From contig JAKORG010000003.1 of NCBI GenBank assembly GCA_029777945.1, positions 62,001 through 126,000 on the forward strand: a stretch of 64,000 bases of DNA, given 5' to 3'. Origin of the DNA: Deltaproteobacteria bacterium. Lineage in GTDB: Bacteria; Desulfobacterota; Syntrophorhabdia; Syntrophorhabdales; Syntrophorhabdaceae. A program made the translations under genes and the position numbers. Positions 29,442 through 33,561 of this stretch are shown piece by piece. Numbering within the stretch: position 1 is the first letter of the stretch; the number at the start of each line of letters is the position of its first letter. A model generated the notes under the pieces. It was not told the origin of the DNA and did no database searches. It saw only the letters and a program-made list of their open reading frames with translations.

Positions 29442-29736
29442 AAAAATATTAAAATTCTAACATTATAAGAAGGGTAATGAGTTAGATGTATTAGTTATAG
29501 ATGTCCATATCCATATAGAGCTCCATGTTATGCCCTTTAAGAATTTGCAAGAATTGCTTCTATCTGCCGTATTATGGTATGCGTTTCTGACCCCCATGAA
29601 ATTACCAGTGTTATTATCATAAATTGACTAAAGTTTTAAAATATAATAAGATGAACCATGAAAAAATGATTAAAAATTTTACACAATCCATTCAAAATTT
29701 ACTAAAGTGAAATTAACGTACTTGAGAGGTTAATAT
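29442..29736. other. Intergenic region
   Basis: About 295 bases without a recognisable gene between the gamma subunit gene and the signalling cluster. The only feature seen is a promoter-like element at 29624-29652. Confidence 0.5.
29624..29652 (+). promoter_or_regulatory. Promoter candidate of the redox-signalling cluster
   Basis: TTGACT, a 17-base spacer and TAAGAT, 84 bases upstream of the first DRTGG gene. No other promoter is needed for the following closely spaced genes. Confidence 0.45.
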
Positions 29737-30084
29737 ATGTTACTTAAAGATGTTGCCCTTGCTTTGGATGCAGAGATTTTATGTTGTGAAGAACTGTTGG
29801 ACCGAGAGGTAAAAACTTGTTTTGCCTGTGATATGGTTAGTGAAATGTTGCTTCATGTGCAATCCAATACCCTTCTTATAACATCTCTTACAAATGCCCA
29901 TGTACTCCATGCAGCCCTTGTAATGGATGCCCTTGCCGTAGTGTTTGTTGGGGGAAAAAGGCCGGATAATACTGTAATAAAAAATGCTGAACATAGTGGT
30001 CTGCCATTAATGACAACGAAAAAGCATATATTTGAATGTTGCGGTCTTTTATACAAAGAAGGATTAAGAGGTTATGAACATTAA
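29737..30084 (+). CDS. DRTGG-like domain protein (first copy)
   Basis: A 115-residue protein resembling the DRTGG domain, a small alpha/beta domain named from HPr-kinase-like and CBS-domain proteins. It has L-A-L-D-A-E-I-L at the start, a V-S-E-M-L segment after the cysteine-containing C-F-A-C-D, and N-A-E-H-S-G-L-P-L-M-T-T towards the end. A related protein lies at 31926-32273. Between them are an RsbW-like ATPase gene and an H-cluster protein gene. The same gene set occurs near [FeFe] hydrogenases in Clostridia and Thermotogales; its role is not established. It begins ten bases before the ATPase gene. Confidence 0.75.
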   Translation: MLLKDVALALDAEILCCEELLDREVKTCFACDMVSEMLLHVQSNTLLITSLTNAHVLHAALVMDALAVVFVGGKRPDNTVIKNAEHSGLPLMTTKKHIFECCGLLYKEGLRGYEH

Positions 30085-30093
30085 TATCAGACC

Positions 30094-30552
30094 ATGCTAA
30101 ACAATAGTTTTAGATTTACACCTCATATAACCCTTGAATTCAAAATCGAAGAAAAAGATTTTTTTATTGCCAGTGAATCAGCATCAAGGATAAAAAAGAC
30201 ATTACAACAACTCGGTATAAAGCAAGACATAATTAAAAGAACAGCTATAATTATCTATGAGGCGGCCATGAATGTTGCAATCCATGCGATACACGGAGCC
30301 CTTAAGGTATATGTTGACCCTGAAGTAATATCTGTTGTGACCGAAGATGTAGGGCCTGGTATTGAAAATGTTGAGCTTGCAATGAAGGAAGGCTATTCTA
30401 CCGCGCCTCAAGAGATTAGAGAAATGGGGTTTGGTGCAGGTATGGGATTGCCAAATATCAAACAGTGTTCCGATGAATTGGTGATCGATACTAAGATTGG
30501 GGAGGGGACAACATTAAAGGCAAAGATTTATTTAAATAAAAATCATGAGTGA
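30094..30552 (+). CDS. RsbW-like histidine-kinase-type ATPase (anti-sigma-factor-type kinase)
   Basis: A 152-residue GHKL ATPase domain without a dimerisation or phosphoacceptor histidine. It shows the N box E-A-A-M-N-V-A-I-H-A, the G1 box E-D-V-G-P-G-I and the G2 box G-F-G-A-G-M-G-L-P-N-I. Such proteins are usually serine kinases of anti-anti-sigma factors or switch proteins. No sigma factor or STAS partner is in the window. Its stop overlaps the region of the next start, so it is translated together with the H-cluster protein. Confidence 0.85.
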   Translation: MLNNSFRFTPHITLEFKIEEKDFFIASESASRIKKTLQQLGIKQDIIKRTAIIIYEAAMNVAIHAIHGALKVYVDPEVISVVTEDVGPGIENVELAMKEGYSTAPQEIREMGFGAGMGLPNIKQCSDELVIDTKIGEGTTLKAKIYLNKNHE

Positions 30553-30557
30553 GTATT

Positions 30558-31913
30558 ATGACAGAATATTTTCATTCAGTAAGGCTTGATTTTGAAAAAT
30601 GTAAAGGATGCACAAACTGTATAAAAAGATGCCCAATGGAGGCCATAAGGGTTCATGAAGGTAAGGCAACTATAATGCAGGAAAGGTGTATTGATTGCGG
30701 TGAATGCATAAGGGCATGTCCTAACCATGCAAAGATATCAGTAACAGATACACTGGACATCTTAAATGATTATAAATATAGAATTGCCCTACCGGCACCA
30801 TCCTTTTTTGCCCAGTTTAAAGAAGTAGAAAATGTGGAGTGTGTGCTCCATGCCCTTTTGAATATAGGTTTTGACGATGTCTTTGAAGTGGCCCTTGCAG
30901 CAGAAGTTGTGGGTTTTTTAATTCATCAATATATAAAAGATAATAAGATAAAAAAACCTGTTTTTTCATCTGCATGTCCAGCAGTGCTTAGGCTTATGCA
31001 GATAAAATATCCTGACCTGTTGGAGCAGGTTGCCCCTGTTTTGACACCAATGGAGGTGGCAGCAAGGATGGCAAAAGAGGATGCAATGAAGAAGACAGGC
31101 TTGAGTTATGAAGACATAGGTGCCTTTTTTATCTCTCCATGCCCTGCTAAGGTAACTGAGATGAGAAATCCAATGAACACAAAACACTCTGCAGTAAATG
31201 GTGTGATTGGTGTAAGCCTAATTTATAAAGATATAATAAAACAGATCCTTGCCATTAAATCGAAAAAAAATGAAGATTATGAAAAATTACATAAGGCAAC
31301 AGGTCTGGGTATGGCCTGGGGTTATGTTACAGGGGAGTCAAAAAATGTTGATATGGGTAAGGCCCTTGCGGTAAGCGGGATTCATAATGTTATAAGTCTT
31401 CTTGAAGAGATAGAGCGGGGTGAATTAAAAGATGTGGATTTTTTCGAACTCCAGGCATGCACCGGTGGATGTGTAGGGGGACCCCTAAACATACACAACC
31501 TTTTTGTAGGAAGGGTCAGATTAAGAGAGCTTATTAAAAAGTGCGGTATACAGGCGCCTTACTATACAGATAAACAGCTTATTGACCTTTACAAAAGGGC
31601 TCATTTTGAAGCCACAGAACCCATTAAGCCAAAGACAATTATGCACTTAGATGAAGATATGTCTCAGGCAATTTTAAAATTGGAACAAGTGGATAAAATA
31701 GCCAGTGAACTTCCTGGCCTTGACTGTGGTGCCTGTGGTTCACCGAACTGTAGGGCACTGGCAGAGGATATAGTCAGGGGTGTGGCATTCGAGACAGACT
31801 GTGTTATAAAATTGAGAGAAAAGGTAAAGACCCTTGCAGAAGAGATTTTAGACCTTGCGAGGATTGTTCCGCCATCTATGGGAGATTCTTCAAAAAAAAT
31901 AGAAGAAAAATAA
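30558..31913 (+). CDS. Sensory [FeFe]-hydrogenase-like H-cluster protein
   Basis: About 450 residues. A two-cluster ferredoxin domain lies at residues 12-60 (CKGCTNCIKRCP, CIDCGECIRACP). A hydrogenase large-subunit domain follows with all three H-cluster motifs: SSACPAV (about 137), ISPCPAK (about 192) and QACTGGCVGG (about 299). A [4Fe-4S] Fes domain (LDCGACGSPNC, about 389) ends the protein. The four H-cluster cysteines are kept, but the proton-relay cysteine of catalytic enzymes (TSCCP) is alanine, as in HydS-type sensory hydrogenases. Relatives often add PAS or phosphatase domains; this one lacks them. The ATG at 30558 is chosen over a GTG nine bases earlier. Confidence 0.85.
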   Translation: MTEYFHSVRLDFEKCKGCTNCIKRCPMEAIRVHEGKATIMQERCIDCGECIRACPNHAKISVTDTLDILNDYKYRIALPAPSFFAQFKEVENVECVLHALLNIGFDDVFEVALAAEVVGFLIHQYIKDNKIKKPVFSSACPAVLRLMQIKYPDLLEQVAPVLTPMEVAARMAKEDAMKKTGLSYEDIGAFFISPCPAKVTEMRNPMNTKHSAVNGVIGVSLIYKDIIKQILAIKSKKNEDYEKLHKATGLGMAWGYVTGESKNVDMGKALAVSGIHNVISLLEEIERGELKDVDFFELQACTGGCVGGPLNIHNLFVGRVRLRELIKKCGIQAPYYTDKQLIDLYKRAHFEATEPIKPKTIMHLDEDMSQAILKLEQVDKIASELPGLDCGACGSPNCRALAEDIVRGVAFETDCVIKLREKVKTLAEEILDLARIVPPSMGDSSKKIEEK

Positions 31914-31925
31914 AAAGAGGTGAGC

Positions 31926-32273
31926 ATGACCCTTGGTGAGATCGTAAAGGAACTTGGCCTTGAGGTTTTAACAGGTAATATAAACCTAAATAAAGAGATA
32001 AAATCAGGATATGTCTCTGACCTCCTCTCTGATGTCATTGCAAATATTGAACAGGATTCTATATGGATAACAATACAGAGACACATAAACATATTAGGGG
32101 TGGCAAAATTAAAGGATGTTATTGCAATTGTAATTCCTCGCAATCTTTCAGTAGAGGAAGAGGTAATAAAAAAGGCAAAAGAAGAGGGTATTGCAATATT
32201 GAGAGATAGAAGAAATGCCTTTGAAATAACCGGATTATTGTACAATATGTTAAAAAAGGCTCAAAATAAATAG
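31926..32273 (+). CDS. DRTGG-like domain protein (second copy)
   Basis: A 115-residue protein of the same type as the one at 29737: L-G-L-E-V-L-T-G, then G-Y-V-S-D-L-L-S-D-V and K-E-E-G-I-A-I-L. The pair presumably forms homo- or heterodimers. The start at 31926 is preceded by GAGGTGA; a GTG two codons earlier lies inside that site and is not used. It lies 12 bases after the H-cluster gene and 11 before the PHP gene. It may bind a nucleotide or a redox-state signal; that is a guess. Confidence 0.75.
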   Translation: MTLGEIVKELGLEVLTGNINLNKEIKSGYVSDLLSDVIANIEQDSIWITIQRHINILGVAKLKDVIAIVIPRNLSVEEEVIKKAKEEGIAILRDRRNAFEITGLLYNMLKKAQNK

Positions 32274-32284
32274 GATGTATAAAT

Positions 32285-33022
32285 TTGAGTGGGTTTTCAT
32301 GTGATCTCCATATCCATTCGGTGCTATCACCGTGTGCAAGCCTTGACATGTCACCTAAAAATATAGTGAAAAAGGCAAAGGATGTAGGTCTTGATATAAT
32401 TGCCATAACAGACCATAACATGACAGAAAATAGTATCTATGCCTACAACATAGGTAAACAGATGGGTATCGCTGTGCTTTTCGGGATGGAACTTCAAACC
32501 CAAGAAGAGGTGCATATGCTTGCAATATTTGACCAATTTAATATCGCTATGGAATTTCAGAAAAAAATATATGCCCTTTTACCTCCTGTAAAAAATGATG
32601 AAGAGTATTTTGGAGATCAGATTGTAGTAGATGAAAACGATGAAATACTACGATTTGAAGAAAGGTTGCTCCTTAATTCTTCTCAAATAACCCTTGAAGA
32701 AGCAGTATACTGGATTAAATCACACGGGGGACTGGCGATTCCATCCCACATAGACGCTCAGACATTTAGCATTATAAGTCAGCTCGGTTTTATCCCAGAA
32801 GGTCTCCCCTTTGATGCCCTTGAGATAAAAAAAAATGAAAACATCCCGAATATACTTCCCTTTATGGCAGGGTGTGAGCTCCCTTTTGTGACATTTTCAG
32901 ATGCCCACTATTTAAATGATATTGGAAAGAAAAGAACTTTTCTTGAGATGGATAAACCAACGTGTAAAGAGATTGAGCTTGCCCTAAAGTTGATAAAAGG
33001 TAATGTAGGAAAAAAGGGTTAG
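32285..33022 (+). CDS. PHP-domain metal-dependent phosphoesterase
   Basis: A 245-residue PHP protein. Metal ligands appear in the expected order: D-L-H-I-H-S, I-T-D-H-N, G-M-E-L, P-S-H-I-D and the final S-D-A-H-Y. PHP proteins of this type hydrolyse phosphate esters, including nucleotide or sugar phosphates; the substrate is unknown. The start is TTG with AGGA eight bases upstream, and no in-frame ATG is available. It closes the five-gene cluster, and similar PHP genes end the same cluster in other anaerobes. Confidence 0.85.
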   Translation: MSGFSCDLHIHSVLSPCASLDMSPKNIVKKAKDVGLDIIAITDHNMTENSIYAYNIGKQMGIAVLFGMELQTQEEVHMLAIFDQFNIAMEFQKKIYALLPPVKNDEEYFGDQIVVDENDEILRFEERLLLNSSQITLEEAVYWIKSHGGLAIPSHIDAQTFSIISQLGFIPEGLPFDALEIKKNENIPNILPFMAGCELPFVTFSDAHYLNDIGKKRTFLEMDKPTCKEIELALKLIKGNVGKKG

Positions 33023-33132: not shown

Positions 33133-33561
33133 ATGTTTTTTAGAGAATACACAATAAAAAGGATATTTCAGGGAAGGCTTTTAAAGGGAAGCGACATTAT
33201 AGAAGATATTAAGGCATTTTTAAAAGAAAAATCTGTTCAATCAGGTATCATTTCTGGAATAGGTGCTGCAACAAAGGCAAATATTGGTTATTACGATCAA
33301 GAGGCCCGAATATATAAAATACACACCTTTGACGAACCTATGGAGATTCTATCATTGAAGGGTAATATATCCATTAAAGACCATGATGCCTTTCCTCATC
33401 TCCATGGTGTATTTTCAAGAAAAGACGGCTTTTGCATTGGAGGTCATATCTTTGAAGGCACAGAGGTATTTGCCTTCGAATTCGAAATTGTAGAGTTTGT
33501 GGGGGATCCGTTTATAAGATATTTTGATGATGAAACAGGGCTTTATCTCTGGGCAAAGTAA
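33133..33561 (+). CDS. PPC/DUF296 domain protein
   Basis: A 142-residue PPC-domain protein, the family that in plants is joined to AT-hooks but in bacteria stands alone. Motifs: G-S-D-I-I-E-D-I, S-G-I-I-S-G-I-G-A-A, S-L-K-G-N-I-S, H-L-H-G-V-F-S-R and G-G-H-I-F-E-G-T-E-V-F-A-F-E. Bacterial members form trimers with a metal-binding site; the function is unknown. It has a modest ribosome binding site (AAAAGGAAAAG) and converges on the glycosyltransferase gene. Confidence 0.88.
   Translation: MFFREYTIKRIFQGRLLKGSDIIEDIKAFLKEKSVQSGIISGIGAATKANIGYYDQEARIYKIHTFDEPMEILSLKGNISIKDHDAFPHLHGVFSRKDGFCIGGHIFEGTEVFAFEFEIVEFVGDPFIRYFDDETGLYLWAK

Follow-up and report, generated by a model that had tools for sequence, protein, structure and literature searches.

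Five genes on the + strand of a Syntrophorhabdaceae metagenome assembly, at 29737-33022 of the 64,000-nucleotide stretch analyzed here (the window), form what we take, with moderate confidence, to be an intact copy of a widespread regulatory cassette of anaerobes that has been relocated in this genome, where it probably acts in trans as an H2/redox-sensing kinase module. The cassette encodes a single-domain DRTGG protein (DRTGG1), an ATPase, a group D [FeFe]-hydrogenase-like protein (HydD), a second DRTGG protein (DRTGG2), and a PHP phosphoesterase (Table 1). All five open reading frames (ORFs) are intact and tightly spaced, and the ORFs and Pfam matches agree with a first-pass annotation that had described a DRTGG protein, an ATPase, an H-cluster protein, a DRTGG protein, and a PHP protein packed end to end. 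Comparison with relatives favors ATG 30558 over GTG 30549 as the start of HydD and places that of DRTGG2 at ATG 31926. The window corresponds to C67:62001-126000 of a 2.4 Mb draft assembly in 102 contigs, whose nearest named records are metagenome assemblies of Syntrophorhabdales/Syntrophorhabdaceae.

Table 1. The five genes of the cassette, in window coordinates
Feature	Coordinates	Strand	Pfam match
DRTGG1, single-domain DRTGG protein, 115 aa	29737..30084	+	2.1e-12
HATPase, SpoIIAB/RsbW type, 152 aa	30094..30552	+	HATPase_c 2.4e-6, HATPase_c_2 3.1e-6
HydD, group D (M2e) [FeFe]-hydrogenase-like	30558..31913	+	Fe_hyd_lg_C 2.2e-38
DRTGG2, single-domain DRTGG protein	31926..32273	+	1.7e-6
PHP metallophosphoesterase, 245 aa	32285..33022	+	1.1e-10

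The order of the cassette genes is conserved far beyond chance. We compared 80 homologous loci, picked by HydD similarity alone, from Desulfobacterota and many Firmicutes (Moorella, Thermoanaerobacter, Caldicoprobacter, Symbiobacterium, and others). In these HydD-selected loci the ATPase gene is adjacent in 70 of the 71 that could be tested and DRTGG1 in 58/71, while DRTGG2 and PHP are adjacent in 61/75 and 58/75, respectively, with median intergenic gaps of -4 to 12 bp. The annotation had asked whether the same order is found outside close relatives; it is kept across Desulfobacterota and Firmicutes. Its statement that such gene sets occur beside [FeFe] hydrogenases in other anaerobes also stands, as 56 of the 67 loci with enough sequence have HydA and HydB genes no more than 8.5 kb downstream. 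In members of the window's own family and order, the genes that come directly after the cassette encode a HATPase, a 2Fe-2S protein, HydC, HydB, and HydA. The five genes are normally, in nearly all relatives, the 5' part of HydABC-type operons. A separate set of loci in Clostridia combines the ATPase-HydD pair with CheW, response regulators, and a fusion between an H-cluster domain and a methyl-accepting chemotaxis protein (MCP). Such fusions (L105:6883-8790, L136:11401-13311, and L118:2696-4603; Pfam-checked in L105 and L136) adjoin a group D ATPase-HydD pair that is accompanied by CheW, a response regulator, or both.

Judged by its sequence, HydD is a putative sensory [FeFe] hydrogenase of group D (M2e) in which every H-cluster ligand is present. 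Pfam finds two N-terminal 4Fe-4S motifs, the H-domain, and a C-terminal FeS domain, with no match to PAS, and the C-terminal cluster motif (Cx2Cx4Cx16C, at 31725-31802) is kept in 85 of 86 homologs. All four cysteines of [4Fe-4S]H are present in HydD and in 86/86 homologs. The proton-relay site (C299) is Ala, in the motif SSACP (codon 30972-30974), just as the annotation had noted, and is Ala in 77/86 homologs; the position of M353 in CpI is Ser (Ser or Thr in 85/86), and that of M497 is Gln in HydD and in 54/86 homologs, with Leu in the Thermoanaerobacter type. In a maximum-likelihood tree HydD falls within a single group D clade that includes Thermoanaerobacter, apart from groups A and C (support 100/99). 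Motif layout, the replacements at C299 and M353, the lack of PAS, and clade placement thus all agree with group D; the usual position of group D genes upstream of a trimeric bifurcating hydrogenase, which is not required for the assignment, is not seen on this contig. Second, shorter HydD paralogs (∼380 residues), which end before the C-terminal cluster domain and are not accompanied by module genes, occur at L056:9043-10194 and L057:1166-2290.

The closest characterized protein is TamHydS of Thermoanaerobacter mathranii (group D), which has been reported to be active and H2-responsive and for which no signaling route is known (PMC8163306, PMC13104023). HydD shares with it the domain layout without PAS, the Cx2Cx4Cx16C cluster, Ala at C299, and Ser at M353, and a Thermoanaerobacter wiegelii homolog belongs to the same clade as HydD; it differs in having Gln rather than Leu at M497 and in that its gene is not near HydABC, whereas the TamHydS gene lies just upstream of it. 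The cassette also recalls sensors of the TmHydS type (group C, M2f), in which a slow H-cluster sensor is encoded beside a bifurcating hydrogenase, an arrangement that this genome has on contig C34; TmHydS, however, has PAS and a phosphatase/kinase partner, whereas the cassette is PAS-less and has the ATPase, DRTGG, and PHP proteins as its outputs.

A mature H-cluster should be possible in this organism, since HydG (478.8 bits), HydF (570.3 bits), and HydE (307.5 bits) all score above their cut-offs; the first-pass annotation had named the absence of these maturases as evidence against its proposal, and all three are encoded. Moreover, the A/S/K/Q pocket is retained in the clade of the window HydD, and this, together with the presence of HydEFG, makes it appear that H-cluster competence has been kept by selection here. 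The genome encodes six Fe_hyd_lg_C proteins, HydD and five others on contigs C87, C34, and C61 (names of neighboring genes on these contigs are our own reading of the sequences unless a family search is given). C87 carries two HydA genes in HydABC operons, and C34 carries Rex, HydC, HydB, HydA, a PAS-type HydS, and a SpoIIE-like phosphatase in one operon (L011:6812-14751), bringing the catalytic [FeFe] HydA genes to three. One of the two tandem HydABC sets has a 1019-residue HydB with a GltD-like oxidoreductase extension (L010:8723-11782), and operons of the C34 type, Rex-HydCBA-HydS, are divergent to the five-gene cassette in several relatives. The protein on C61 (G000:C61:3689-5752, L012) is an H-domain fused to a histidine kinase and is encoded beside response regulators; it has Phe at the proton-relay Cys site and Gln at the Lys358 site, making [2Fe] binding doubtful.

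The gene orders of relatives indicate that the standalone condition is derived. In four of them (G016, G010, G018, and G024) the five genes lie between a CBS gene and a HATPase gene, while on C87 of this genome, as in G012, the CBS gene adjoins the HATPase gene with nothing in between, exposing the old site without the five genes. In G012 the five genes are found ∼5 kb upstream, the intervening block comprising a 272-residue transporter-like gene and FdhA-like and NuoG-like genes, and the cassette has CysS-PorG neighbors, as in the window. In the tree, the four standalone copies cluster as a single clade (100/99) that branches from within the operon-linked ones. The simplest history is that the five genes transposed once, as a block, in an ancestor shared by this genome and the sister genus, and that the lineage of this genome later lost the proximity to the operon. 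The survival of every gene after an intact move suggests that the cassette works as a unit and in trans. The annotation's remark that the set stands alone holds in that the contig carries no second Fe_hyd_lg_C gene; it does not extend to independence of hydrogenases, since three catalytic HydA genes are encoded elsewhere in the genome and the cassette appears to have been lifted from a HydABC operon. Between PorG and DRTGG1, three relatives that share the CysS-PorG-DRTGG1 order have a 540-residue gene that we read, from sequence and without a family search, as adenine deaminase-like, and that is absent here (window 29442-29736); it has no homolog beside other cassettes, and we therefore rejected it as a cassette member and assign it to the landing site.

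The ATPase resembles the serine kinases of partner-switching systems. It carries an intact N box (E56, N60), G1 box (D85-x-G-x-G), and G2 box (GFGAGMG), and E56, N60, D85-x-G87-x-G89, and the GFGAGMG glycines are invariant in 80 + 37 ATPase copies examined, so that the protein shows the marks of SpoIIAB/RsbW-type kinases, namely a HATPase domain, all three boxes, and a catalytic Glu. The nearest solved sequence is SpoIIAB (1l0o, 2.7e-6), and the match to the NCBIfam model spIIAB (2e-12) lies below the family cut-off. Family and catalytic boxes are thus those of SpoIIAB/SpoIIAA and RsbW/RsbT, but the partner-switching layout, in which kinase, STAS antagonist, and sigma factor are encoded together, is not found at the locus: no STAS or sigma gene is present among the five cassette genes and the neighbor scanned on either side (the rest of the genome was not searched for STAS), and DRTGG proteins occupy the place of the STAS antagonist.

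Both DRTGG proteins carry a D-x-x-S motif: D32-x-x-S35 in DRTGG1 (codons 29830-29841) and D34-x-x-S37 in DRTGG2 (codons 32019-32030; residues numbered from GTG 31920). The Ser is invariant in DRTGG1 (70/70 and 31/31 copies) and in DRTGG2 (76/76 and 38/38), as are the other DRTGG2 signature residues W49, T51, and N57, except that N57 is found in 37/38 copies of the second set. The motif is module-specific, neither residue being found in 13 DRTGG domains of other proteins, and the two serines are candidate phospho-sites for the ATPase. A structural model of DRTGG1 (predicted local distance difference test [pLDDT] 92) has the DRTGG structure 2ioj as its nearest solved fold (template modeling score 0.82). 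Natural fusions (DRTGG1-ATPase, HydD-DRTGG2, HydD-DRTGG1, and CBS-ATPase) point to direct contact between the partner proteins.

The PHP protein has the complete metal-ligand set (H9, H11, D43, H44, E69, H77, H155, D206, and H208), invariant in 38 further copies, and its model (pLDDT 95) has the fold expected of a PHP phosphoesterase. The best structural matches are PfuEndoQ (Z = 22.1), TM0559 (17.3), 3e0f (17.1), and RNase AM (16.5), far above the CpsB/YwqE protein phosphatases (Z ∼7.5), and this ranking favors a nucleotide or nucleic-acid substrate, although the fold alone is no proof of substrate. At 245 residues the protein is shorter than EndoQ (∼400 residues), which adds C-terminal domains and cleaves DNA at deaminated bases; the Z of 22.1 refers to the PHP domain. 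The nucleotide- or phosphate-based messenger suggested in the annotation stays hypothetical: the metal site is complete and the structure resembles the nucleic-acid/nucleotide branch of the PHP family, but not every cassette includes PHP.

Taken together, these features would fit a scheme in which HydD reacts slowly with H2 and passes a redox or conformational change to the ATPase and its DRTGG partners in a multiprotein complex. HydD would thereby gate the ATPase, acting as a SpoIIAB/RsbT-like serine kinase that phosphorylates the D-x-x-S serine in each DRTGG protein, and the PHP protein would reset the state or hydrolyze a nucleotide co-signal. The output would be the expression or activity of HydABC or formate dehydrogenase (FDH) complexes, reached in trans in this genome.

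Several points weigh against this scheme. The D-x-x-S motif could instead belong to a ligand pocket, the main alternative to a phospho-site. PHP genes are absent from some cassettes (e.g., in Desulfofundulus and Desulfotruncus) and DRTGG genes from some loci, and thus these components cannot all be essential. We found no biochemistry on the ATPase, DRTGG, or PHP proteins of the module in the literature. The assembly is a draft, and the trans link between the cassette and the C87 operon is drawn from relatives only. A Rex-like 18-mer (TTGATAAAATTTTCACAA) with full score precedes the HATPase-HydABC operon on C87 (L010, upstream of 17083) and is conserved in G012; upstream of DRTGG1 in the window no Rex-like operator was found, the best match being 11/14, and the idea that Rex links cassette and hydrogenase here through a shared operator type is therefore not supported.

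It should be noted that H2 is not the only likely input to such modules. In a survey of 247 Desulfobacterota genomes, the DRTGG module was found in 60, of which 49 lack HydG (it is present in 11, in 10 above cut-off) and 26 encode no Fe_hyd_lg_C protein of any kind. Many of the modules read in detail have the order DRTGG1-ATPase-DRTGG2-PHP-HATPase-HydC-Fd-HydB without HydD, followed by genes of molybdopterin FDH type (NAD-formate dehydrogenase), NuoG-like (NuoEFG-like) genes, or [NiFe] genes; one HydD-bearing module adjoins an Rnf gene set. Since most Desulfobacterota carriers lack HydG and many modules lack HydD, this is not an H2 system in general; across the family the signaling part is not H2-specific and H2 is an optional input. 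The annotation's proposal that the locus senses H2 or redox state and signals through a serine kinase is made plausible by the conserved gene set, HydEFG, the H-cluster ligands, and the N, G1, and G2 boxes, but its H2 part does not carry over to the family as a whole. In L226, L227, and L228 (from G243, G220, and G170) a HydD-less DRTGG-ATPase-DRTGG-PHP-HATPase set lies directly before a 1080-residue gene, which in L226, the only one tested, encodes a fused methylmalonyl-CoA mutase/MeaB.

The HydD-like proteins of HydG-less genomes keep nearly all Fe-S cysteines (in G272, the exception, one N-terminal Cys is Arg) and have an altered [2Fe] pocket, with C299 mostly replaced by L, V, I, T, or Y and M497 commonly by Arg. 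Most of these proteins group, with weak support, as sister to canonical group D; within the canonical clade, too, a Y/R pocket has arisen. HydG accompanies the canonical pocket in 4/4 cases and an altered pocket in 3/21 (Fisher p = 0.003, uncorrected for kinship). The idea that pocket change simply follows maturase loss is weakened by L072 and L074 (Firmicutes), where a Y/R pocket occurs beside a HydA with an H-cluster motif, and by G134, G162, and G213, which have HydG together with an altered HydD.

More tentatively, the family may represent an undescribed modular system, DRTGG1-kinase-DRTGG2-PHP, in which the kinase would act on DRTGG proteins in place of STAS antagonists and which would control NADH-linked electron-transfer complexes (HydABC, formate dehydrogenase, NuoEFG, [NiFe], and Rnf), with HydD as a plug-in that would be an H2 sensor, a plain Fe-S redox sensor after loss of the [2Fe] pocket, or absent. 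An alternative that we consider rather unlikely is that the cassette reads the ferredoxin/NADH state for whichever complex it serves, HydD signaling through its Fe-S clusters with or without [2Fe]. The scarcity of HydG and Fe_hyd_lg_C proteins among Desulfobacterota carriers, the conserved Fe-S cysteines beside changed pocket sites, and the FDH, NuoG-like, [NiFe], and Rnf partners all speak for such a generic redox function; it sits less well with the window clade, which keeps its pocket in a genome that has HydEFG. It is improbable that the cassette serves maturation or quality control of HydBC/NuoEF-type complexes, the ATPase and scaffolds loading Fe-S or flavin subunits: it does usually lie near HydBC-type subunits whatever the catalytic partner, and the same operons encode another small HATPase as well as a 2Fe-2S protein, but CheW, response regulators, and the H-cluster/MCP protein adjoin some copies, CBS-ATPase fusions exist, and the ATPase resembles anti-sigma kinases. 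Finally, the lack of an adjacent partner operon and of the adenine deaminase-like gene of three relatives might suggest an orphan decaying without function since leaving its operon, which we consider highly improbable given five intact ORFs, every invariant residue kept, a HydD that shares 84% identity with its counterpart in the nearest standalone genome, and the retention of undamaged copies by four standalone genomes.

Related gene sets have been listed before. Halanaerobium hydrogeniformans has a like set upstream of a HydABC-type hydrogenase (Halsa_1862-1871), listed gene by gene (PMC4237134), and M2e gene neighborhoods, including the position of group D upstream of bifurcating hydrogenases, are on record (PMC3561251, PMC8163306). 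These sets were listed rather than analyzed and are hydrogenase-linked, whereas the window cassette is standalone. Group D and its hydrogenase linkage are thus known; for the DRTGG-kinase-PHP set as a system, its HydD-less forms, and the detached copy, we found no analysis in the literature, a search of open-licence papers only and hence weak evidence. How group D [FeFe] hydrogenases signal without PAS is an open question posed in the TamHydS work (PMC8163306). The present comparison supplies a conserved partner set, fusions indicative of contact, two candidate phospho-serines, and variants with and without H2 input, and the question therefore becomes testable with small soluble proteins; it also cautions that operons of this kind need not all be H2 sensors. 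Directly 3' of the cassette, at window 33133-33561, lies a PCC-domain (PF03479) gene, which also follows the cassette in G012.

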